Source: Gordonia pseudamarae | GTDB taxonomy: Bacteria > Actinomycetota > Actinomycetes > Mycobacteriales > Mycobacteriaceae | DNA length: 64,000 bases | Reading direction: 5' to 3' | Assembly: GCF_025273675.1 (NCBI RefSeq) | Contig: NZ_CP045809.1 | Span: 2,356,001 to 2,420,000, forward strand | In this document: piece by piece, positions 30,071 to 55,507 of the stretch | Position numbering within the stretch: the stretch's first letter is position 1 | Layout of the letters: every line of letters starts with the position of its first letter | Program-made: the position numbers and the translations under genes | The notes under the pieces: model-generated | The model's database searches: none | Seen by the model: the letters and a program-made list of their open reading frames with translations, nothing else | Told to the model about the DNA's origin: nothing

Positions 30071-30471
30071 GCGCGGGACTGTTCCTCGCGGTGGCGGTGG
30101 CGGGTGGATTCGGATCGGTGTGCCGGTTCGTTCTCGACGGACTGATCCGCTCCCGAACCGGCGACGACCTGCCGTGGGGTACGGTCACCCTCAATCTCAC
30201 CGGGTCGTTCGCGCTCGGCCTGATCACCGGTTTGGCCGTGGATCACGTGGTCTCGGACGCGGCCCGGATGGTCATCGGCACCGGATTTCTCGGCGGCTAC
30301 ACCACCTTCTCCACCGCATCGTTCGAGACGGTACGGCTGCTGCAACAACGCGCCACACCCGGGGCGGCGGGAGATCGCCGGTGGGCCGTGGGTCTGCTCA
30401 ACGCCTTCGGGGTACTCGTCGTGGCGACCGGCGCGGCCGGACTGGGCCTGTGGGCCGGGGGTCTGACCTGA
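30067..30471 (+). CDS. crcB: Fluoride channel CrcB/Fluc, subunit 2
   Basis: 134 residues with GTG start at a GTGA overlap. GGFGSVCRFVLDGLIRSR, TLNLTGSFALGLITGLA and GTGFLGGYTTFSTASFET are present. Actinobacterial CrcB pairs form antiparallel dual-topology or heterodimeric channels, so both genes probably make one channel. No long N-terminal extension, unlike the first. Confidence 0.92.
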   Translation: MSAGLFLAVAVAGGFGSVCRFVLDGLIRSRTGDDLPWGTVTLNLTGSFALGLITGLAVDHVVSDAARMVIGTGFLGGYTTFSTASFETVRLLQQRATPGAAGDRRWAVGLLNAFGVLVVATGAAGLGLWAGGLT

Positions 30472-30501
30472 TCGGCGACCCCCGTCGGCCCCGAAAGAAC
30501 C

Positions 30502-30520
30502 CTAGGTTAGCCTTATCTAA
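30502..30520 (+). promoter_or_regulatory. IdeR/DtxR iron box
   Basis: CTAGGTTAGCCTTATCTAA matches the 19-bp IdeR consensus TTAGGTTAGGCTAACCTAA at 15 positions, and the degenerate form TWAGGTWAGSCTWACCTWA at 17. It lies at the head of the flippase operon. Iron-loaded IdeR would repress from here, so the operon should be induced by iron limitation. Confidence 0.75.
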
Positions 30521-31857
30521 TGCTTGGGGGAACGAAGGCTTCGGTCGGTGTCAGGGTGGGCCGCTTCGAACTTGATGCCGGTGCTCTGATGTCGTCGTCG
30601 ATCATGACCGGGGCCTTGGGGTTTGGGTTCTGGGCGCTGTCGGCGCGCACAGCGTCTGCCGACGACGTGGGCCGGGCGGCCGCGGTCATCTCCACCGCCA
30701 CGATGCTCGCCACGGTGGCCAACCTCAGTGTGGGCAACCTCTATGTGCGATTTCTTCCGGTGGCCGGCCGCGATGCCCGTAGGTTGGTCGCCGCGGGGAT
30801 GATCGTGACTGTGTCGCTGGCCGGTGTGCTCGGCCTCGGCCTGCTCGTCGTCGGGCCCCGCGACCGGCTGTTCGACTCCGACCTGGGCGTGGTCCTATTC
30901 CCGGTGTGCACGATGGTGCTGGCCGCTTTCGCGCTACAGGACCCGATCCTGGTCGGCCTGCGCCGGGCCCGGCTGGTGGCGCTCAAGAACACCGTCCAAT
31001 CGGTGCTCAAACTTGTGTTGCTCGGCGGTGCCGCACTGCTGGTGGCCTCGTCCACGACGATCGTCGCGGCGTGGATGGTGCCCGCCGCCGTCGTCACCGC
31101 GGTGGTGGCCTGGTTCGGGGTGCGCCCGGCGGTCGCGGCCAAGACCGAGCCGTCGAATCTGCCGTCGCGGCGTCAACTCATGGGATTCTTCGGTGGAACC
31201 TACGCGATGACCCTGGCCGGTGTCGCCGTCCCGCTGACCGTGCCGCTGCTCATCGTGGCCTCCCTCGGTACGGCCGCCAACGCCTACTTCAACGTCTGCT
31301 GGCTGATGGCCTCGACGCTGGGCATCCTCATCGCCACCTCCCGCGAGCCCTATATCGCGGAGGCGGCCACCGCAGGTACGGACCTGCGGGACACCACCAC
31401 CCGCTACATCCGGTTGTGCCTGGGTGCGGGGGTGGCCGGCGGACTGATCCTGGCCACCGCAGGGCCGGTGGCCCTGCTGATCATGGGCCGTGACTACGCC
31501 GACGCCGCGACCCGGCTGGTGTGGTTGATGGCGCTCACGATGCCGCTGCTGGCGGTGATCACCCTCTATGGCGCCCTGGCCCAGCATTTCCGGAGGTTGC
31601 GGCTGGCCGGTTCGGTCCAGTTCATCACCGCCGCGCTCATCATCGCAGGCATAGCGCTGACGGCCCCGCGCTGGGGCCTGACGTCGGTCGGGTTCGTCTA
31701 TCTCACCGTCGATCTGTTGGCCGTGACGATCATCTCGGTTCCGCTCTACCGGTTCCTGCGCAGCATCTACCATCGCGCATCGGTACCCGGCCGCGCTGTC
31801 GGAGAACCCCGCGCCGGTGTCGGACAACTCTCCGACGGTGTCGGTGCCCAACCATGA
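30520..31857 (+). CDS. Wzx/MATE-like polysaccharide or glycoconjugate flippase
   Basis: Up to 445 residues with about 12 hydrophobic helices, e.g. IMTGALGFGFWALSARTASA, LGVVLFPVCTMVLAAFALQD and MALTMPLLAVITLYGALAQH. The layout is that of MOP-superfamily oligosaccharide flippases, which turn lipid-linked or amphipathic glycans across the inner membrane. The ATG at 30520 overlaps the last base of the iron box, so translation may really begin at GTG 30556 or ATG 30589, both still before the first helix. The stop overlaps the glycosyltransferase ATG by 4 bp. First gene of the iron-boxed operon. Confidence 0.82.
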   Translation: MLGGTKASVGVRVGRFELDAGALMSSSIMTGALGFGFWALSARTASADDVGRAAAVISTATMLATVANLSVGNLYVRFLPVAGRDARRLVAAGMIVTVSLAGVLGLGLLVVGPRDRLFDSDLGVVLFPVCTMVLAAFALQDPILVGLRRARLVALKNTVQSVLKLVLLGGAALLVASSTTIVAAWMVPAAVVTAVVAWFGVRPAVAAKTEPSNLPSRRQLMGFFGGTYAMTLAGVAVPLTVPLLIVASLGTAANAYFNVCWLMASTLGILIATSREPYIAEAATAGTDLRDTTTRYIRLCLGAGVAGGLILATAGPVALLIMGRDYADAATRLVWLMALTMPLLAVITLYGALAQHFRRLRLAGSVQFITAALIIAGIALTAPRWGLTSVGFVYLTVDLLAVTIISVPLYRFLRSIYHRASVPGRAVGEPRAGVGQLSDGVGAQP

Positions 31858-33026
31858 CCCATCTGATGATCGGCATGGACGCACTCGACAGCCTCGGCGG
31901 CGTCCAGTCCGTGATCCGGATCCTGGCGGGGGCCTTCGACGACGACGGTGATCGGGTCGAACTGGTGGAGATCGAACCGGCGAACCCGCGGTTTGACCTG
32001 CTCACCGTCCCGCCGTTGCCCCGGTACACGCTGTCGCCGGTGCCCACGGCGTTGCCGTACGAGCCGACGACCGCGGTGCGCACCGCCAAATTGGTTGTGC
32101 GCGGGTACCGCGACGGCCTGCGGATCCGGAAGGCGGGCGTACGTGCGCTCACCGGACTGGCCACCGCCCACCCCGAGGCGGTGTGGCTGCTGATGCAGTG
32201 GCGGCTGGTGGAGATGGCGGTGGACGCCGGACTCGGGCGCCGGGTGATCGGTCAATACCACGACTGTGTGACCACCGCCGCCGCCAACGGCGACCTGGCC
32301 AGAATCATCCGCACCGGACCACATCTGGCCGCCACCTGCGCCCTGACCGAGGCCGATGCGGCGAGACTCCGCGAACACGGGGTGCCCCGCGTGTACGCGG
32401 TCACCAACCCGGTGCCCCGGCCCCCGGCCGCGCCGGACGCTGCCGTGCGCACCGACACCGTGGTCGCGGCGGGCCGTTTCGTGCCGCAGAAGAATTTTGT
32501 GTCACTGGTGCGGGCGTGGGGCCTGCTCGGTGGCGCCCGTACCGGGTGGCGGCTGCGGATCATCGGGGCCGGGCCACAGGAACGGGAGATTCGCGAGGCC
32601 GTCACCCGGGTCGGCGTGGCCGATTCGGTCACTGTCGAACCGCCCCGAACCGATCTGCCCGACGTGCTGCGGTCCGCGTCGCTGTACGCGATGTCCTCGC
32701 GGCACGAAGGGCTGCCGATGGTGCTTACCGAGGCGATGGCCCTCGGGGTTCCGTTCGTGTCCACACCGTGCTCGGCCGGCGTGGCCGAACTGGCCGACGG
32801 TGCCCGCGCGGGTCTGCTGGCCCGCACACACGCCCCCGCGGACCTGGCCGCAACCATCGCCCGGGCACTCACCGACCCCTCGCTGCGCGCCGAGTTGGGT
32901 GCGCACGGCAGACAACTGATCGGTGGCCGGGAACCCGGTGCGGTCATCGGGCACTGGCGCACGCTGTTCGTCGAACTGGGCATGACCGACGATTCCACAA
33001 CCGACACGAAGACCGCACCGCTATGA
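31854..33026 (+). CDS. GT4 family glycosyltransferase
   Basis: 390 residues, GT-B fold. The N-terminal MTHLMIGMDALDSLGGVQSV is the acceptor-domain glycine loop; the donor domain shows AAGRFVPQKNFVSLVRAWGL and the GT4 E-x7-E motif SSRHEGLPMVLTEAMALGVP near residue 280. It transfers a sugar from an NDP-sugar at the cytoplasmic face of the membrane. ATGA overlaps on both sides make it strictly coupled to the flippase and the NRPS-like gene. The sugar cannot be inferred. Confidence 0.87.
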   Translation: MTHLMIGMDALDSLGGVQSVIRILAGAFDDDGDRVELVEIEPANPRFDLLTVPPLPRYTLSPVPTALPYEPTTAVRTAKLVVRGYRDGLRIRKAGVRALTGLATAHPEAVWLLMQWRLVEMAVDAGLGRRVIGQYHDCVTTAAANGDLARIIRTGPHLAATCALTEADAARLREHGVPRVYAVTNPVPRPPAAPDAAVRTDTVVAAGRFVPQKNFVSLVRAWGLLGGARTGWRLRIIGAGPQEREIREAVTRVGVADSVTVEPPRTDLPDVLRSASLYAMSSRHEGLPMVLTEAMALGVPFVSTPCSAGVAELADGARAGLLARTHAPADLAATIARALTDPSLRAELGAHGRQLIGGREPGAVIGHWRTLFVELGMTDDSTTDTKTAPL

Positions 33027-35590
33027 CGCCTTCACTGACCGCCCTGACACCGCTGACGCTCGACACCTCGGGCACACACGTCGCGGACTACACCGTCGCC
33101 CGGCGGGTGCTCGATGCGCTCGACACTCTGGGTGCGCTGCCGGCGTTGTGCACACCCGCCGAGACGATCACCTACGGCGAGCTGGGGCGCGCGGTGGCCG
33201 GATGGCGCGAGCACCTGCGGGCCGGTGACATCGGCGAGGGTCCGCTCGCCTTCGTGATCGACGTGACGGCGGGCTCGCTCGCCGCGCTGCTGGGCGCGAT
33301 CACCGAACGGATACCGGTGGTGCTCATCGACCCGAACCTCACCGCGGACCGGGCGCGGGTGATCTGTTCGACGGCCGAGGTCACCGCGGTGGTGTGCGAC
33401 CGCACCCATGCGGGCACGGCGGGTGCCCTCACCGAAACCCCGGTGATCATCGAAACCCCGGTGATCACCGACGCTCCGCCCGAACGTGCCGCGATCACCC
33501 CGCCGCAGGCGTCCACGCCGCCCGGTCTGGTCAGCTACCAGTTCACGTCGGGATCGACCGGTACCCCCAAAGCGGTGTTGCACACCGACCGGATGTGGCT
33601 CGGGGACGCGCTGATGCTGCAGGAGCGGTTCGGTTTCGGTCCCGGACACCGGGTCGGTTCTGTACTGCCGGCCGGTTTCGGGGCCGGACTCAACGTGCTG
33701 CTGGCATCGTTGATGACCGGGTCGACCCTGCTGCACGCCGACGCCCGCACCACCGCGCCCGAGGTGCTGCTCAACTGGATCGAGGTCCACTCAGTGCAGG
33801 TTCTGGTGGCGACTCCGTCGCTGTTGCGGGCGCTGGTCGTGGCTGACGCAGGTGCCCGGGTGGACTCATTGATTCGAGTGGTTACCACCGGAGAACCTGT
33901 GCATGGCAAAGACTTTCAGAAGGCTCGTGCGATTGCACCGCAGGCGGTGTTCACCAACTGGGTGGGGTCGAGCGAAACGGGCGGACTCGCCCACCGCGAC
34001 TACCACCCCGGCGAGGCGATTCCGCAGACCCTGCTGCCGGCGGGGCGGCCGGCACCGGGCAAGGCGATCGGGGTCGGACCTGACGGCACGATCACCGTAC
34101 GTTCGGCGTACCTCAGCGGCGGTTACCTGGACCAGGAGGCGACTGCGGCGGTATTCACCACCCATGGTGACGGCACCCGCAGTTTCACCACCGGCGACCG
34201 TGGCCGATGGGATTCCGTCGACGGGCTGGTGCTGCTCGGCCGCCGCGACCAGGCGGTGAAAATCCGGGGATACCTTGTCGACCCGTCGGAAATCGTCACC
34301 GCACTGACCGCTGCCCCCGACATCATCGAGGCGTACGTCCTGGTCTCCGGTAGGGATACCTCCTCTCCGGTGCTGACGGCGTTCGCGGTGCCCGACGGTG
34401 CCCAGCGCAGTCCGGTGGCCGCCGAACTGAGACAACGGCTCTCGGCGGCGCTGCCGTCGTGGATGCTGCCCACCCACATCGTCGTCCTCGCCGAGTTGCC
34501 GCGCACCGAACGAGGAAAGGTCGACCCGTCGGCGCTGTCGGTGCCCACCCGCGTCATCGGTGTCCCACCGCTCGGCGGTATCGAGTCCGAGGTCGCCGGA
34601 ATCTGGCGGCAGGCGCTGCACCTGGACGAGATCGGCCGGACCGAGAACTATCACGAGCTCGGCGGGGACTCGCTGACCCTGCACAGCATCCTCAGCGAGA
34701 TCACCCGCCGGTACGGGTTGAGCCTGACCACCGCAGATCTGGCCGCCGCACCGACGGTGGCCGAGTTCAGCACGCGAATCGGCGACGCGCGCCGGAGCCG
34801 CGGACGTACGGGCCCGGCCGGCCGCCGGACCGCGAGCACCACCGTCGCCCTGCGGGCACCGTCGGATACGGCGAAGACGCCGCTGTGGTGCTATGCGGGG
34901 GCGGGTGCATCGGCGGTGTCGTTCCTGCCACTGGCCACCCTGCTGCCCGATGACCAGCCGGTGTTCGCGTTCCAGCCGTTCGGGCTGGAGGAACGCGGAA
35001 TCCCGGACTGGACGGTGGGCCGGGCCGCGCGCCGCCACCTGCGAGATCTGCAGGCGATCAGCCCGCGGGGGCCGCACGTGCTGGTCGGTCACTCGCTCGG
35101 CGGTTTGATCGCGATCGACACCGCGCGCCGACTCGACGCGCTCGGTCAGCGGGTTCGGCTCGTGGTCATCCTCGACACGTTTCTGCCGCCGTCGGTGACC
35201 GGCGGGCACGGTGTCACGATGGCCGCGCCCACCGAGGTCAACGCCGGCGAGGAGGCACTGAGCACCGCCGAGCTCTGGCGGCGCAGACTGGCGTTGCCGC
35301 TGGCCGGGATCATCCGGCGGCCACCGGAGGAACAGATCGGTGCACTCGAGGAGGTCGGTCGCCGGGTCGGCATGTTGCACCGGCCCAAGTTGTGGTCGGG
35401 TGATGCCCTGGTCTATCGGTCCCGGTTCAACGACGACACCGACGAACAGTGGCGGTCGGTGCTGACCGGCCGGGTCGAATTCCGGTCCCTGGACTGCGAC
35501 CATCCGTCCGTGGTGCGCGCACCGTCGATCAACATGATCGCCGGCGAGGTCGCCGCCCGGATCACGGACCAGGGCGGCGAGCGCCGCTGA
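33023..35590 (+). CDS. One-module NRPS-like enzyme, A-T-TE
   Basis: 855 residues. Adenylation domain 1 to about 510: A3 YQFTSGSTGTPKAV (about 171), A5-like NWVGSSETGG (about 311), A7 FTTGDRGRW (about 388), A8 LLGRRDQAVKIRG (about 404), A10 LPRTERGKVD (about 491). Carrier domain with phosphopantetheine Ser in LGGDSLTLHS (about 549). Thioesterase from about 610: VGHSLGG nucleophile (about 688), ILDTFLP Asp, DCDHPS His. No condensation domain. The A4 region reads PAGFGAGLN, lacking the Asp that holds an alpha-amino group, so a keto, hydroxy or carboxylic acid may be loaded. The TE could transfer it to the sugar or lipid made by the neighbours. Coupled by ATGA to the GT gene. Confidence 0.88.
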   Translation: MTPSLTALTPLTLDTSGTHVADYTVARRVLDALDTLGALPALCTPAETITYGELGRAVAGWREHLRAGDIGEGPLAFVIDVTAGSLAALLGAITERIPVVLIDPNLTADRARVICSTAEVTAVVCDRTHAGTAGALTETPVIIETPVITDAPPERAAITPPQASTPPGLVSYQFTSGSTGTPKAVLHTDRMWLGDALMLQERFGFGPGHRVGSVLPAGFGAGLNVLLASLMTGSTLLHADARTTAPEVLLNWIEVHSVQVLVATPSLLRALVVADAGARVDSLIRVVTTGEPVHGKDFQKARAIAPQAVFTNWVGSSETGGLAHRDYHPGEAIPQTLLPAGRPAPGKAIGVGPDGTITVRSAYLSGGYLDQEATAAVFTTHGDGTRSFTTGDRGRWDSVDGLVLLGRRDQAVKIRGYLVDPSEIVTALTAAPDIIEAYVLVSGRDTSSPVLTAFAVPDGAQRSPVAAELRQRLSAALPSWMLPTHIVVLAELPRTERGKVDPSALSVPTRVIGVPPLGGIESEVAGIWRQALHLDEIGRTENYHELGGDSLTLHSILSEITRRYGLSLTTADLAAAPTVAEFSTRIGDARRSRGRTGPAGRRTASTTVALRAPSDTAKTPLWCYAGAGASAVSFLPLATLLPDDQPVFAFQPFGLEERGIPDWTVGRAARRHLRDLQAISPRGPHVLVGHSLGGLIAIDTARRLDALGQRVRLVVILDTFLPPSVTGGHGVTMAAPTEVNAGEEALSTAELWRRRLALPLAGIIRRPPEEQIGALEEVGRRVGMLHRPKLWSGDALVYRSRFNDDTDEQWRSVLTGRVEFRSLDCDHPSVVRAPSINMIAGEVAARITDQGGERR

Positions 35591-35606: not shown

Positions 35607-36383
35607 CTAGCGGGGTGCCATCCGGATCGCGCCGTCGAGGCGAATCGTTTCGCCGTTGAGCATCGGGTTGTCGACGATGTGCAGGGCCAGGGCCGCGTAT
35701 TCGGCGGGTTTGCCCAGTCGCGACGGGTGCGGAACCTGCTCCCCGAGGGATCGTTGCGCCTCCTCGGGCAGCCCCGCCATCATCGGCGTCTCGAAGATGC
35801 CCGGTGCGATGGTCACCACCCGGATCAGGTGGTCGGCGAGTTCCCGGGCCACCGGCAAGGTCAGCGCCGCCACCCCACCCTTGGACGCGCCGTAGGCGGC
35901 CTGGCCGATCTGCCCGTCGAACGCGGCAACCGAGGCGGTGTTGATGATCACGCCCCGCTCACCGGTCAGATCGCCGGGTACGGGTTCGGTCTGTGACATC
36001 TTCTCCGCGCCGAGCCGGATCACGTTGAACGTTCCGATCAGATTGATGCGCACGACCCGCTCGAAGGCATCGAGTGCGAGAACGCCCTTGCGGCCGAGGA
36101 CCTTGCCGGGGGTGGCCACGCCGGCGCAGTTGACCACGACGCGCACCGGGCCCAGGGTGGCCGCGAAGTCCATCGCGGCGGCCACATCGTCGGCCGAGGT
36201 GACGTCGGCGGCGGCGAAGTGTGCGGTGGGGCCGATCGCGGCGGCCGCGGCGTGTCCGTCCGAGGACGGCAGGTCCAGGAGCACGACCTGTGCTCCCCGC
36301 TCGTGCAACGCGCGGGCGGTGGCGTTGCCCAGGCCGGAGGCTCCGCCGGAGATGACGGCGACGGATGAACTGTCGATCTTCAT
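35607..36383 (-). CDS. 3-hydroxyacyl-CoA dehydrogenase type II (SDR)
   Basis: 258 residues. NAD site [19 protein letters not shown], acidic DLPSSDG after strand 2 (NAD preference), [15 protein letters not shown], catalytic Ser in [14 protein letters not shown] and YGASK. The FxxGQxGQ-like pattern and the [17 protein letters not shown] end are typical of HSD17B10-like enzymes that oxidise 3-hydroxyacyl-CoA. It lies 32 bp downstream of the acyl-CoA dehydrogenase gene, forming a beta-oxidation operon. It converges with the NRPS-like gene. Confidence 0.9.
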
Positions 36384-37656: not shown

Positions 37657-38808
37657 TCACGCCGCTTGGCGGAGGGTGCCGTCGTTGTTGAGTCGGTTGA
37701 GGTGGCGGTTGAGGTGGTCGCGGGTGTATTTCCAGCCGAAGGGTTCAGCGTTCTGGTTGTAGCGGTCCTCGAAGGCGAGGATTCGTTGCGCGAGGTCATC
37801 GAGGTCGGTGAAGTCGCCGGTGGTGATGGCTTTGCGTTGCAGGATCGAGAAGTAGATCTCGACTTGGTTGAGCCACGAAGCGTGTACGGGCAGGTGCACC
37901 AGGACCGCGCTGGGGAACGCCTCACGCATCCGGTCGATCGATGCCTGCCCGGCGTGGGAGGAACCGTTGTCGACGATCCAGAACACCCGCTTCGCTGAGG
38001 CATACGGTTCCTGGGTCATCACTTGTTTCACGAGGTGGGTGAACGGCACGATCCCGGTCTTCGGTGCTGTCATTCCATGCACCTGGGCGTGGTGGACGTC
38101 GTAGGCAGCGAAGTAGGCCAGCGTGCCACCGCGGCGGTACTCGAACTCGACTCTGCGTGGTTGCCCTGGTGCCGCGGGTGTTTCGGGGTGACGCCGCCTG
38201 AGGGCTTGCAGCTGGGACTTCTCATCGGCGCTGATCACGTATTCATCAGCGCCGAGCTCGACACCGTTGTACTGCCGTTGGTACAGGTCCAGCACCGGAC
38301 TTGCTTTGACCGCGAAGTCGGGGTCGCGGGGAAAGATCCAGGACCGATGCTGCCACGGCTTGATCGCATCGGCGGCCAACCACCGGCCGATCGTGGACGG
38401 CGAGACTGGCCGCACCAGCCCGGCCGCAACCGCGTGTGTGCTGAGTTCGGCGGTCGACCACCTCGTTAACGGCAGATCGTGGTCGGCCGGTCGCGTGCAC
38501 GCGAGTGCTTTGACCTCGGCAACCTCGACCGGGGTGAACACCGGTGGCCGCCCTGATCGGGGCCGGTCCTTAAGCCCGTCAAGACGCTGCACGCAGAAGC
38601 GATGTCGCCAGCGGCGGGCGGTGTCCTCGCAGACCCCCACGTCGCGGGCAATCTGGGCGTTCGCGACACCGTCAGCAGCAGCGAGCACGATCCGGGCACG
38701 CAGCAGATCGCGATGGGGGCATTTCGCGGCGTTCGCGCGGCGTGTCAGGACATGTCGTTCTTCATCGGTGAGGACCACGACGTCAGCACTGGTGAGAGTC
38801 ACATCCAT
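37657..38808 (-). CDS. IS630 family transposase (copy 1)
   Basis: 383 residues. N-terminal helix-turn-helix (GVANAQIARDVGVCEDTARR) and a linker with the GLKDRPRSGRPPVFTP motif typical of IS630/Tc1. The DDE catalytic core is complete: Asp in YVISADEKSQLQAL, Asp in VFWIVDNGSSHAG and Glu in ASWLNQVEIYFSIL. ATG at 38808 has GGAGC 8 bases upstream; the long N-terminal extension to 38994 is antisense to the passenger gene and unlikely. The protein is identical to that of copy 2, so both are probably active or recent. Confidence 0.93.
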   Translation of the reverse strand: MDVTLTSADVVVLTDEERHVLTRRANAAKCPHRDLLRARIVLAAADGVANAQIARDVGVCEDTARRWRHRFCVQRLDGLKDRPRSGRPPVFTPVEVAEVKALACTRPADHDLPLTRWSTAELSTHAVAAGLVRPVSPSTIGRWLAADAIKPWQHRSWIFPRDPDFAVKASPVLDLYQRQYNGVELGADEYVISADEKSQLQALRRRHPETPAAPGQPRRVEFEYRRGGTLAYFAAYDVHHAQVHGMTAPKTGIVPFTHLVKQVMTQEPYASAKRVFWIVDNGSSHAGQASIDRMREAFPSAVLVHLPVHASWLNQVEIYFSILQRKAITTGDFTDLDDLAQRILAFEDRYNQNAEPFGWKYTRDHLNRHLNRLNNDGTLRQAA

Positions 38809-38887
38809 TTCTGACGCTCCGAGCCGCCGGAGGCCAAGACGCCACGCCGACACCGAACAGATCAAGGCAGCACATGACGATGCCACG

Positions 38888-39265
38888 ATGATGAGAATCA
38901 TGGCGAAGATCCCCGACTCGACCCAGACCTCGCTACGGCAAAAGCTCCTGGCCCGCGCCGCCGAACGCTGGCCCCAGATCCAGACCCTGCACACCCGCTA
39001 CCGTGCGGGGTTCGCCTACATCGACGCCACCCTCACCGACGGCGAGGAGGTGAAGCTATGCCGGCTGCGCTACGCCGGATCGGCCAACCAATGGGGCTTC
39101 GCGATCTACCGCGCCAGCCACAACGACTACGAACAAGCCGTCCTCCCCACCGGCTGGCCCTCAGGCACCCCCGAGCAAGCCCTCGACACCGCCTGCGGCC
39201 TCTACCTCAACGACCCCACCACCTGGCTCCCAGACCCCCGACGAACTAACGGCGATACCCACTAG
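38888..39265 (+). CDS. IS630 passenger protein of unknown function (copy 1)
   Basis: 125 residues, divergent from the transposase and ending at the TAG formed by the terminal CTAG of the element. MMRIMAKIPDSTQTSLRQKL, ERWPQIQTLHTRYRAGFAYI, then LCRLRYAGSANQWGFAIYRA: charged, soluble, no membrane segment. Coding composition is good and the same protein occurs in copy 2. It might assist or regulate transposition, or be cargo; no family recognised. Confidence 0.7.
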   Translation: MMRIMAKIPDSTQTSLRQKLLARAAERWPQIQTLHTRYRAGFAYIDATLTDGEEVKLCRLRYAGSANQWGFAIYRASHNDYEQAVLPTGWPSGTPEQALDTACGLYLNDPTTWLPDPRRTNGDTH

Positions 39266-53898: not shown

Positions 53899-55050
53899 TC
53901 ACGCCGCTTGGCGGAGGGTGCCGTCGTTGTTGAGTCGGTTGAGGTGGCGGTTGAGGTGGTCGCGGGTGTATTTCCAGCCGAAGGGTTCAGCGTTCTGGTT
54001 GTAGCGGTCCTCGAAGGCGAGGATTCGTTGCGCGAGGTCATCGAGGTCGGTGAAGTCGCCGGTGGTGATGGCTTTGCGTTGCAGGATCGAGAAGTAGATC
54101 TCGACTTGGTTGAGCCACGAAGCGTGTACGGGCAGGTGCACCAGGACCGCGCTGGGGAACGCCTCACGCATCCGGTCGATCGATGCCTGCCCGGCGTGGG
54201 AGGAACCGTTGTCGACGATCCAGAACACCCGCTTCGCTGAGGCATACGGTTCCTGGGTCATCACTTGTTTCACGAGGTGGGTGAACGGCACGATCCCGGT
54301 CTTCGGTGCTGTCATTCCATGCACCTGGGCGTGGTGGACGTCGTAGGCAGCGAAGTAGGCCAGCGTGCCACCGCGGCGGTACTCGAACTCGACTCTGCGT
54401 GGTTGCCCTGGTGCCGCGGGTGTTTCGGGGTGACGCCGCCTGAGGGCTTGCAGCTGGGACTTCTCATCGGCGCTGATCACGTATTCATCAGCGCCGAGCT
54501 CGACACCGTTGTACTGCCGTTGGTACAGGTCCAGCACCGGACTTGCTTTGACCGCGAAGTCGGGGTCGCGGGGAAAGATCCAGGACCGATGCTGCCACGG
54601 CTTGATCGCATCGGCGGCCAACCACCGGCCGATCGTGGACGGCGAGACTGGCCGCACCAGCCCGGCCGCAACCGCGTGTGTGCTGAGTTCGGCGGTCGAC
54701 CACCTCGTTAACGGCAGATCGTGGTCGGCCGGTCGCGTGCACGCGAGTGCTTTGACCTCGGCAACCTCGACCGGGGTGAACACCGGTGGCCGCCCTGATC
54801 GGGGCCGGTCCTTAAGCCCGTCAAGACGCTGCACGCAGAAGCGATGTCGCCAGCGGCGGGCGGTGTCCTCGCAGACCCCCACGTCGCGGGCAATCTGGGC
54901 GTTCGCGACACCGTCAGCAGCAGCGAGCACGATCCGGGCACGCAGCAGATCGCGATGGGGGCATTTCGCGGCGTTCGCGCGGCGTGTCAGGACATGTCGT
55001 TCTTCATCGGTGAGGACCACGACGTCAGCACTGGTGAGAGTCACATCCAT
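53899..55050 (-). CDS. IS630 family transposase (copy 2)
   Basis: 383 residues, identical in sequence to the transposase of copy 1: intact HTH, linker and DDE residues (SADEK, VDNGSSH, NQVEIYF). Confidence 0.93.
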   Translation of the reverse strand: MDVTLTSADVVVLTDEERHVLTRRANAAKCPHRDLLRARIVLAAADGVANAQIARDVGVCEDTARRWRHRFCVQRLDGLKDRPRSGRPPVFTPVEVAEVKALACTRPADHDLPLTRWSTAELSTHAVAAGLVRPVSPSTIGRWLAADAIKPWQHRSWIFPRDPDFAVKASPVLDLYQRQYNGVELGADEYVISADEKSQLQALRRRHPETPAAPGQPRRVEFEYRRGGTLAYFAAYDVHHAQVHGMTAPKTGIVPFTHLVKQVMTQEPYASAKRVFWIVDNGSSHAGQASIDRMREAFPSAVLVHLPVHASWLNQVEIYFSILQRKAITTGDFTDLDDLAQRILAFEDRYNQNAEPFGWKYTRDHLNRHLNRLNNDGTLRQAA

Positions 55051-55129
55051 TTCTGACGCTCCGAGCCGCCGGAGGCCAAGACGCCACGCCGACACCGAAC
55101 AGATCAAGGCAGCACATGACGATGCCACG

Positions 55130-55507
55130 ATGATGAGAATCATGGCGAAGATCCCCGACTCGACCCAGACCTCGCTACGGCAAAAGCTCCTGGCCCGCGC
55201 CGCCGAACGCTGGCCCCAGATCCAGACCCTGCACACCCGCTACCGTGCGGGGTTCGCCTACATCGACGCCACCCTCACCGACGGCGAGGAGGTGAAGCTA
55301 TGCCGGCTGCGCTACGCCGGATCGGCCAACCAATGGGGCTTCGCGATCTACCGCGCCAGCCACAACGACTACGAACAAGCCGTCCTCCCCACCGGCTGGC
55401 CCTCAGGCACCCCCGAGCAAGCCCTCGACACCGCCTGCGGCCTCTACCTCAACGACCCCACCACCTGGCTCCCAGACCCCCGACGAACTAACGGCGATAC
55501 CCACTAG
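55130..55507 (+). CDS. IS630 passenger protein of unknown function (copy 2)
   Basis: 125 residues, identical to the passenger protein of copy 1; its stop codon is again formed at the terminal CTAG. Confidence 0.7.
   Translation: MMRIMAKIPDSTQTSLRQKLLARAAERWPQIQTLHTRYRAGFAYIDATLTDGEEVKLCRLRYAGSANQWGFAIYRASHNDYEQAVLPTGWPSGTPEQALDTACGLYLNDPTTWLPDPRRTNGDTH

Follow-up and report, generated by a model that had tools for sequence, protein, structure and literature searches.

Gene organization and iron box

The window analysed here is a 64 kb stretch of the Gordonia pseudamarae genome, and its central feature is a three gene operon on the forward strand preceded by a putative iron box of the IdeR/DtxR type. 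In brief, the operon encodes a Wzx-like polysaccharide flippase (30520-31857), a family 4 glycosyltransferase (GT4; 31854-33026) and a one-module enzyme resembling nonribosomal peptide synthetases (NRPS), with adenylation (A), carrier (T) and thioesterase (TE) domains in that order (A-T-TE; 33023-35590). The three open reading frames are joined by ATGA overlaps, as the initial annotation had reported. The next gene (35607-36383) is encoded on the opposite strand, and thus the gene run ends at 35590.

The iron box, CTAGGTTAGCCTTATCTAA, is located at 30502-30520 on the forward strand. It has 2 mismatches (17/19) to TTAGGTTAGSCTWACCTAA, which we take to be the 19-bp IdeR/DtxR consensus and used for scoring, in agreement with the score given for it at first. 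No other place in the window comes within 3 mismatches, and 100 shuffles gave no such site. Counting both strands, the genome of 5.15 Mb contains 15 places within 3 mismatches (11 forward and 11 reverse matches), whereas the consensus read backwards gave no forward and one reverse match at this threshold. Only one other place in the genome has as few as 2 mismatches, so that the window box shares the top rank.

The iron box ends at 30520, on the A of the ATG that opens the flippase gene. A possible -10 element, TAGCCT, lies inside the box (30508-30513, forward strand) and fits what we assume to be the TANNNT type. Transcription would then start at the ATG at 30520, and the flippase mRNA may be leaderless. 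A sigma-70 scan of positions 30400-30650 gave no promoter, and a codon usage based gene caller preferred the GTG at 30556 over the ATG at 30520 as the start of the flippase. The genome encodes an IdeR/DtxR protein (L168:1216-1899) that passes model NF053665 (331.5, cut-off 290). Three proteins with an Fe_dep_repr_C domain were found in total; two do not reach the IdeR/DtxR cut-off, of which one is closest to MntR.

Proteins encoded by the operon

The flippase has 445 aa and approximately nine transmembrane (TM) segments by a simple hydropathy count. It matches PF01943 with an E value of 1.6e-5, but the 24.9 bits are below the curated 28.2. The precomputed table of the protein database assigns PF01943.23 to it, and a profile search against solved structures gave no relative at E≤0.01. 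The GT4 glycosyltransferase (390 aa) matches PF13692 and PF00534 over cut-off and has the EX7E motif starting at residue 285, in line with its first assignment. Its nearest solved structure is a mannosyltransferase of the PimB type (E 2.6e-9).

The A-T-TE enzyme has 855 aa, and its description as a one-module NRPS-like protein holds, with AMP-binding, AMP-binding_C, PP-binding and Thioesterase all over the Pfam cut-off. The adenylation domain comprises residues ~40-499 (33140-34519), the carrier domain residues 523-586 (34589-34780) and the thioesterase domain residues 620-831 (34880-35515). Motifs A3 and A8, the A10 Lys, GGDSL, GHSLGG and the C-terminal His are all present. Among solved structures, linear gramicidin synthetase is its best relative (E 9.5e-63). 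None of the operon proteins has a Pfam Condensation match, as was noted before. A database copy of this enzyme (P0005, 785 aa), encoded on a 5 kb contig, does not have a stretch inside the A domain, and is either a strain variant or an assembly fault.

Amino acid activating A domains have an Asp at position 235 (the numbering of positions 235 and 239 is as we assume it to be), where the window enzyme has a Gly. Across 69 A-T-TE sequences we found Gly in 61, Ala in six and Asp in none, while two did not cover the position. The lack of Asp235 is a mark of A domains that activate aryl acids and does not name the acid; judged from these residues, the A domain probably activates a carboxylic acid other than an alpha-amino acid. 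Asn239 and a TNWVGSSET-like stretch are shared between the window enzyme and the A-T-TE enzymes of five clusters of type A (see below) with aryl acid genes (L055, L058-L060 and L062).

Relatives in other genomes

Loci were fetched for a match to the A-T-TE enzyme, the flippase or DHQS-II (PF01959, see below), and 73 of them were mapped. Gene starts and gene lists come from the codon usage based caller, with no annotation used, and the groups A, B, C and R were drawn after the locus maps had been seen. It should be noted that many of the loci are close kin, that L143 overlaps L121, and that L069 and L070 are halves of one cluster.

Matches to the A-T-TE enzyme are present in 30 of the 59 genomes of the genus, own genome included (E≤1e-60), and in 81 of 401 genomes of the family, representing 7 of 31 genera (E≤1e-90). 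The flippase has matches in 23 of the 59 genus genomes (E≤1e-8), and the ten best of these outside the own genome all adjoin or are fused to an A-T-TE. Fusions of flippase and A-T-TE into one protein of ~1260-1350 aa were found in L107-L111, from a Mycobacterium-like genus (g29), and in the Gordonia locus L054. The N-terminal part of the fusions is 43-47% identical to the window flippase and the C-terminal part 42-44% identical to the window A-T-TE. In nine more loci of type A (L051-L053, L055, L056, L058-L060 and L062) the two genes are adjacent. The window flippase is 43-48% identical to flippases of type A clusters and 33-42% to most others.

In a tree of 61 A-T-TE enzymes, the window enzyme pairs with a 57% identical Rhodococcus protein (support 100), and the pair is sister to 18 enzymes of types A and C (support 100 for all 20). 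The tree is the result of a short search in which fused proteins were cut to their last 860 residues, L143, L070, L061, L067, L118, L119 and L136 were left out, and the A-T-TE of L069 ends at the edge of its stretch.

The protein database has relatives of both the GT4 (52%) and the A-T-TE (57%) from Rhodococcus sp. 27YEA15, the sole named organism in which the two were seen together. The genome of the Rhodococcus homologue (P0006) was not among 18, 28 and 6 genomes of three genera (E≤1e-150) or 400 relatives (E≤1e-120). A scan of genome contigs gave three remote loci (27-29%), and a plasmid search gave 20 records at 25-28%. The operon had been presented as a stand-alone oddity of three genes, a view that we abandon; it belongs, as an outlier, to a family of clusters, many of them with iron boxes, in Gordonia, Rhodococcus and Mycobacterium.

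Iron boxes across the related loci

Groups A, B, C and R together contain 67 sites with at most 4 mismatches over 45 loci, and 37 of the 45 have a box. Random stretches gave 2 such sites in 20 from the same genus and 1 in 11 from other genera. The reversed consensus gave no sites in the 45 loci or in the 20 random stretches. Across all 73 loci, 52 are boxed at ≤4 mismatches and 20 at ≤3, compared with three and none of the 31 random stretches.

By group, boxes at ≤4 mismatches are found in 9/13 loci of type A, 6/7 of type C, 15/15 of type R, 7/10 of type B, 0/8 of the loci resembling L066 and 7/7 of the g6 type. Eight of 13 unassigned loci are also boxed (the 13 being L071, L072, L077, L085, L123, L127, L129, L130, L136, L140, L141, L143 and L144). 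Of the 67 boxes, 66 have their centre outside any predicted gene, with a predicted start downstream. The genes adjoining them are most often GT2a (20), the aldolase (14), the A-T-TE (13), unlabelled genes (13) and the aromatic hydroxylase (11), followed by an ABC ATPase (8), GT2d (5), the flippase (4), an esterase (4) and others in lower numbers. In the loci of types A and C, which are homologous clusters and include no strict orthologue of the operon, a box is found beside the flippase three times and beside the A-T-TE five times, and 15 of the 20 loci have some box.

The seven A-T-TE loci of genus g6 (L121, L122, L124, L125, L139, L142 and L145) have one 4-mismatch box each, near a small gene with no Pfam family (L121:16175-16798). 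The A-T-TE in L121 adjoins an FtsX/MacB-type permease and an ATPase. In each of the loci resembling L066, the A-T-TE is located beside large proteins of family f14, and this clade represents a different pathway.

Glycan and aryl acid genes in sibling clusters

Many of the type A and R loci encode family 2 glycosyltransferases (GT2), GH16 proteins, proteins with 12-14 TM segments and flippases. In addition, they encode a DeoC/LacD aldolase, DHQS-II, an aromatic hydroxylase of the 4-hydroxybenzoate 3-monooxygenase subfamily and a luciferase-type monooxygenase. These labels come from profile scans of representatives and were given to the remainder by BLAST; TM segments were counted by hydropathy. 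Two of the GT2 families score best, though under the cut-off, against polyprenyl- or dolichyl-phosphate sugar enzymes. Much of the same glycan module, with an A-T-TE, is also found outside the family, in the Geodermatophilaceae-like loci L175, L176, L179 and L180, which have no box, and in the Nakamurella-like L178 and L181, which have two boxes each.

The aldolase and DHQS-II pair makes 3-amino-4-hydroxybenzoate (AHBA) in Streptomyces, according to PMC6692506. We found DHQS-II in 16 of the 59 genus genomes, all 16 being among the 30 with an A-T-TE (E≤1e-60). The two are within one locus (≤20 kb) in 12 of the 16, and apart in G018, G025, G051 and G054, as is the case for the window operon. Since DHQS-II is located apart from the operon, the acid genes would have to serve it in trans.

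A four gene ABC set found by family in L057, L067, L127, L129 and L130 was considered as an iron importer beside the aryl acid loci and dropped. The Pfam domains in L130 (a PBP_like_2 binding protein, two BPD_transp_1 permeases and an ATPase) suggest to us a phosphate importer. FecCD proteins were found in a sister cluster in the own genome (see below), and one protein of that family in L077; the other loci were not scanned for FecCD.

A conserved protein, F17 (L069:11322-12662 and kin), is flanked on both sides by an iron box in the own genome. Pfam scans of three members and an NCBIfam scan of one gave no family, and there was no solved relative at E≤1. A scan of 10 members gave AATase for two (best E 0.067) and Metal_resist for one (0.007). 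All ten aligned members have an HGxG(D/E) stretch, and therefore F17 is perhaps a condensation-type acyltransferase; this is only a lead, taken from the motif.

Other boxed loci in the own genome

The sister cluster L069/L070 (G000:C1:2568000-2605900, at 2.57-2.60 Mb) has seven boxes at ≤4 mismatches. It encodes the aldolase, DHQS-II, the hydroxylase, a flavin monooxygenase, an A-T-TE, two flippases, GT2 enzymes and proteins related to the GH16 and 12-TM ones. A FecCD importer (two permeases and an ATPase) is also encoded there. The cluster appears to be the core of the system. A DhnA-type aldolase and DHQS-II are adjacent there (L069:15502-17593) and pass NCBIfam subfamily cut-offs. The models for BagB/FevI and BagC/FevH are next best, and their 'exception' cut-offs are not reached (243.7 against 500 and 406.8 against 750, respectively). 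The operon itself has no ABC importer, as was remarked initially.

L068 (G000:C1:2905000-2924900, at 2.91 Mb) is a boxed locus of type B encoding an A-T-TE, GT2 enzymes, a PF00756 esterase, an ABC-2 exporter and an NRPS with Condensation domains. Its kin (L064, L065, L086-L089, L115, L128 and L131) share parts of this set, and type B loci possibly make a glycosylated peptide siderophore.

At ~3.82 Mb, L071:8471-14056 has a 2-mismatch box before genes for TauD, FcoT and an acyl-CoA ligase, together with a T-TE protein and a flippase that is 40% identical to that of the window. L085 is similar by family. The set resembles the mycobacterial isonitrile lipopeptide cassette, here joined to the same flippase and TE families. 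Elsewhere in the own genome a boxed luciferase-type monooxygenase is 81% identical to the enzyme of an aryl acid cassette. Other boxed places adjoin genes with no evident link, such as those for prephenate dehydratase and a short-chain dehydrogenase.

Proposed function of the operon

We consider it likely that the operon belongs to an iron-regulated system for an acylated glycoconjugate. The initial proposal of such a product, or of a glycosylated chelator, gains support from the recurring boxes, the fusions of flippase and A-T-TE, and the genes for an AHBA-type acid in sibling clusters. The fuller reading that we favour, to which we give a nearly even chance, is that of an IdeR-repressed operon whose products load a probably aromatic acid onto a lipid-linked sugar that is flipped outward for iron capture. 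In this scheme, iron-loaded IdeR would cover the promoter and start codon and repress the operon, which would be turned on in iron shortage. The A-T-TE would activate a non-amino acid, for which an AHBA-like aryl acid, the kind that the boxed sister cluster should make, is the best candidate. The acid would be held on the carrier domain, and the TE or a partner acyltransferase would move it onto a sugar. The GT4 would add a sugar to that lipid-linked acceptor, and the flippase would carry the acylated product, a glycolipid or oligosaccharide, to the outside of the membrane. There it may become an iron binder, either within an envelope glycan or as a released glycoside. The binding of IdeR, the acid, the acceptor, the export and the chelation are steps that we infer.

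Several observations weigh against this reading. Of the 73 loci, 21 have no box, including the Gordonia fusion L054 and the type A loci L056, L058 and L067. The Geodermatophilaceae-like loci have neither boxes (0/7) nor recognised aryl acid genes, and none of the eight loci of the Gordonia A-T-TE clade with L066, L132-L135, L137, L138 and L146 is boxed. A search of the 58 other Gordonia genomes for the GT4 gene gave no match at E≤1e-30. Pfam searches found no importer, initiating transferase or polymerase in the window operon, and it is assumed that the TE transfers the acid rather than hydrolyses it. At E≤1e-30, DHQS-II is missing from the genomes of seven of the 13 type A loci (G008, G020, G021, G022, G038, G055 and G056), so the acid need not be an aminohydroxybenzoate. 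In the sister cluster, the A-T-TE carries Asp239 and NRSGSSETGN in place of the Asn and NWVGSSETGG of the window enzyme. Because of these different pockets the two enzymes may load different acids, and we therefore lowered our estimate for an acid of the aminohydroxybenzoate kind, which we now hold to be slightly less likely than not.

Other explanations differ mainly in what the product does. Envelope remodelling, where an acylated surface glycan would be made in iron shortage for adhesion, barrier function or stress protection with no role in chelation, is in our view fairly unlikely. It would account for much of the core glycan module existing unboxed and with no recognised aryl acid genes in other families of the order: L175, L176, L179 and L180 hold several of the GT2, membrane and GH16 families of the module. 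It would also suit the type A genomes that have no DHQS-II. However, boxes are often placed beside the aldolase and aromatic hydroxylase genes, and the own sister cluster encodes a FecCD importer. This importer also speaks for a soluble glycosylated siderophore, where the A-T-TE would make an aryl ester or oligomer, the GT4 would glycosylate it and the flippase would export it, with no polymer or lipid carrier. Fungal A-T-TE enzymes release small products (one such enzyme is described in an abstract), and the boxed NRPS, ABC-2 exporter and PF00756 esterase of L068 point the same way. We nevertheless regard a soluble product as unlikely: the siblings encode GT2 enzymes near the polyprenyl-phosphate models (under cut-off) as well as 12-14-TM and GH16 proteins, and because of these a lipid-linked glycan fits better.

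Two further explanations concern the box itself. If it were a chance match or a relic, the operon would not be under iron control; the unboxed loci of relatives could be taken in this way, and there was no strict orthologue with upstream DNA for comparison. Against this stand the empty shuffles, the rank of the site in the genome, its place at the start of a gene run and the boxes adjoining flippase or A-T-TE genes in relatives, and we hold a chance match to be very improbable. The box could also be read by another DtxR-type regulator responding to manganese or some other metal, for which the two Fe_dep_repr_C proteins under the IdeR/DtxR cut-off, one of them nearest MntR, would be candidates. 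The consensus, however, is what we take to be the IdeR/DtxR iron box type and the same kind of site is found at the FecCD importer, which leaves this explanation with a minimal probability.

A wider extension of the lipid-linked, iron-capturing glycan is more speculative, and we consider it somewhat unlikely as a whole. Mycolic-acid bacteria would possess a new class of iron scavenger, a lipid-linked glycan with metal-binding acyl groups added in the cytosol by carrier-TE enzymes, moved by a dedicated flippase, displayed or shed, and controlled by IdeR, with the window operon as a tailoring arm. The acyl groups would be AHBA-type aryl acids and, in a second boxed locus, perhaps isonitrile acids. 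If the reading favoured above is right, iron shortage in Gordonia, Rhodococcus and relatives would lead to glycans or glycosides bearing chelators, with NRPS-like chemistry joined to lipid-linked sugar export. This would add a class of iron-capture molecule and explain many unassigned boxed clusters, and the combination of iron box, flippase and A-T-TE would be a cheap handle for finding products.

Comparison with known systems

As in the IdeR/DtxR regulons of Actinobacteria, a 19-bp palindromic box starts the gene run and an IdeR-type regulator is encoded in the genome. In contrast to these, the genes controlled here are a flippase, a glycosyltransferase and an A-T-TE, and not a peptide siderophore assembly line or an importer. 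The operon differs from pathways of the mycobactin, nocobactin and heterobactin kinds in having no Condensation domains or peptide assembly. Salmochelin-like glycosylated catecholate siderophores are similar in that a glycosyltransferase acts on an aryl acid chelator under iron control, but the window has no trilactone synthetase or C-glucosyltransferase, and a lipid-linked sugar route is proposed here.

Wzx-type export of lipid-linked glycans is similar in its PF01943-kind flippase and glycosyltransferases, and the 12-14-TM proteins and GT2 enzymes near polyprenyl-phosphate models in the siblings agree with this. In the present family, however, the flippase is fused with or adjoins an NRPS-like acylating enzyme. 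The operon by itself is not a Wzx/Wzy locus, as it encodes a flippase and a GT4 with no initiating transferase or polymerase; the sibling clusters have candidates for these. Fungal quinone and furanone synthetases have the same A-T-TE order and a non-amino acid substrate, but the window enzyme belongs to a bacterial clade of its own and is partnered with a flippase.

The closest chemistry is found in the AHBA pathways of Streptomyces (grixazone, bagremycin/ferroverdin and ahbamycin; PMC6692506, PMC10179220). The sibling clusters encode the same DhnA-type aldolase and DHQS-II, whereas the Streptomyces clusters are described with SARP regulators and CoA-ligase-type enzymes, and the window itself lacks the aldolase/DHQS-II pair. 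One of the Streptomyces products, ferroverdin, consists of an AHBA-derived ester complexed with iron. The term 'iron box' does not occur in PMC6692506, nor do 'thioesterase' and 'iron' in PMC10179220. AHBA-derived iron chelates (ferroverdins) are already known, and we class the operon with iron-box-controlled metabolite operons. Among the papers listed by searches of the open-licence literature, judged by titles and the starts of abstracts, none names the combination of iron box, flippase, glycosyltransferase and A-T-TE. The paper found for AHBA together with siderophores and Gordonia has AHBA only in its references (PMC12161575), and those found for AHBA, iron and siderophore clusters, or for AHBA with iron and Rhodococcus, are on Streptomyces by title or abstract start.

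Repeated element in the window

Downstream of the operon, the window contains two letter-identical stretches of 1609 bases (37657-39265 and 53899-55507) with three predicted genes each (294, 70 and 125 aa). From their letters they look like two copies of one insertion element.

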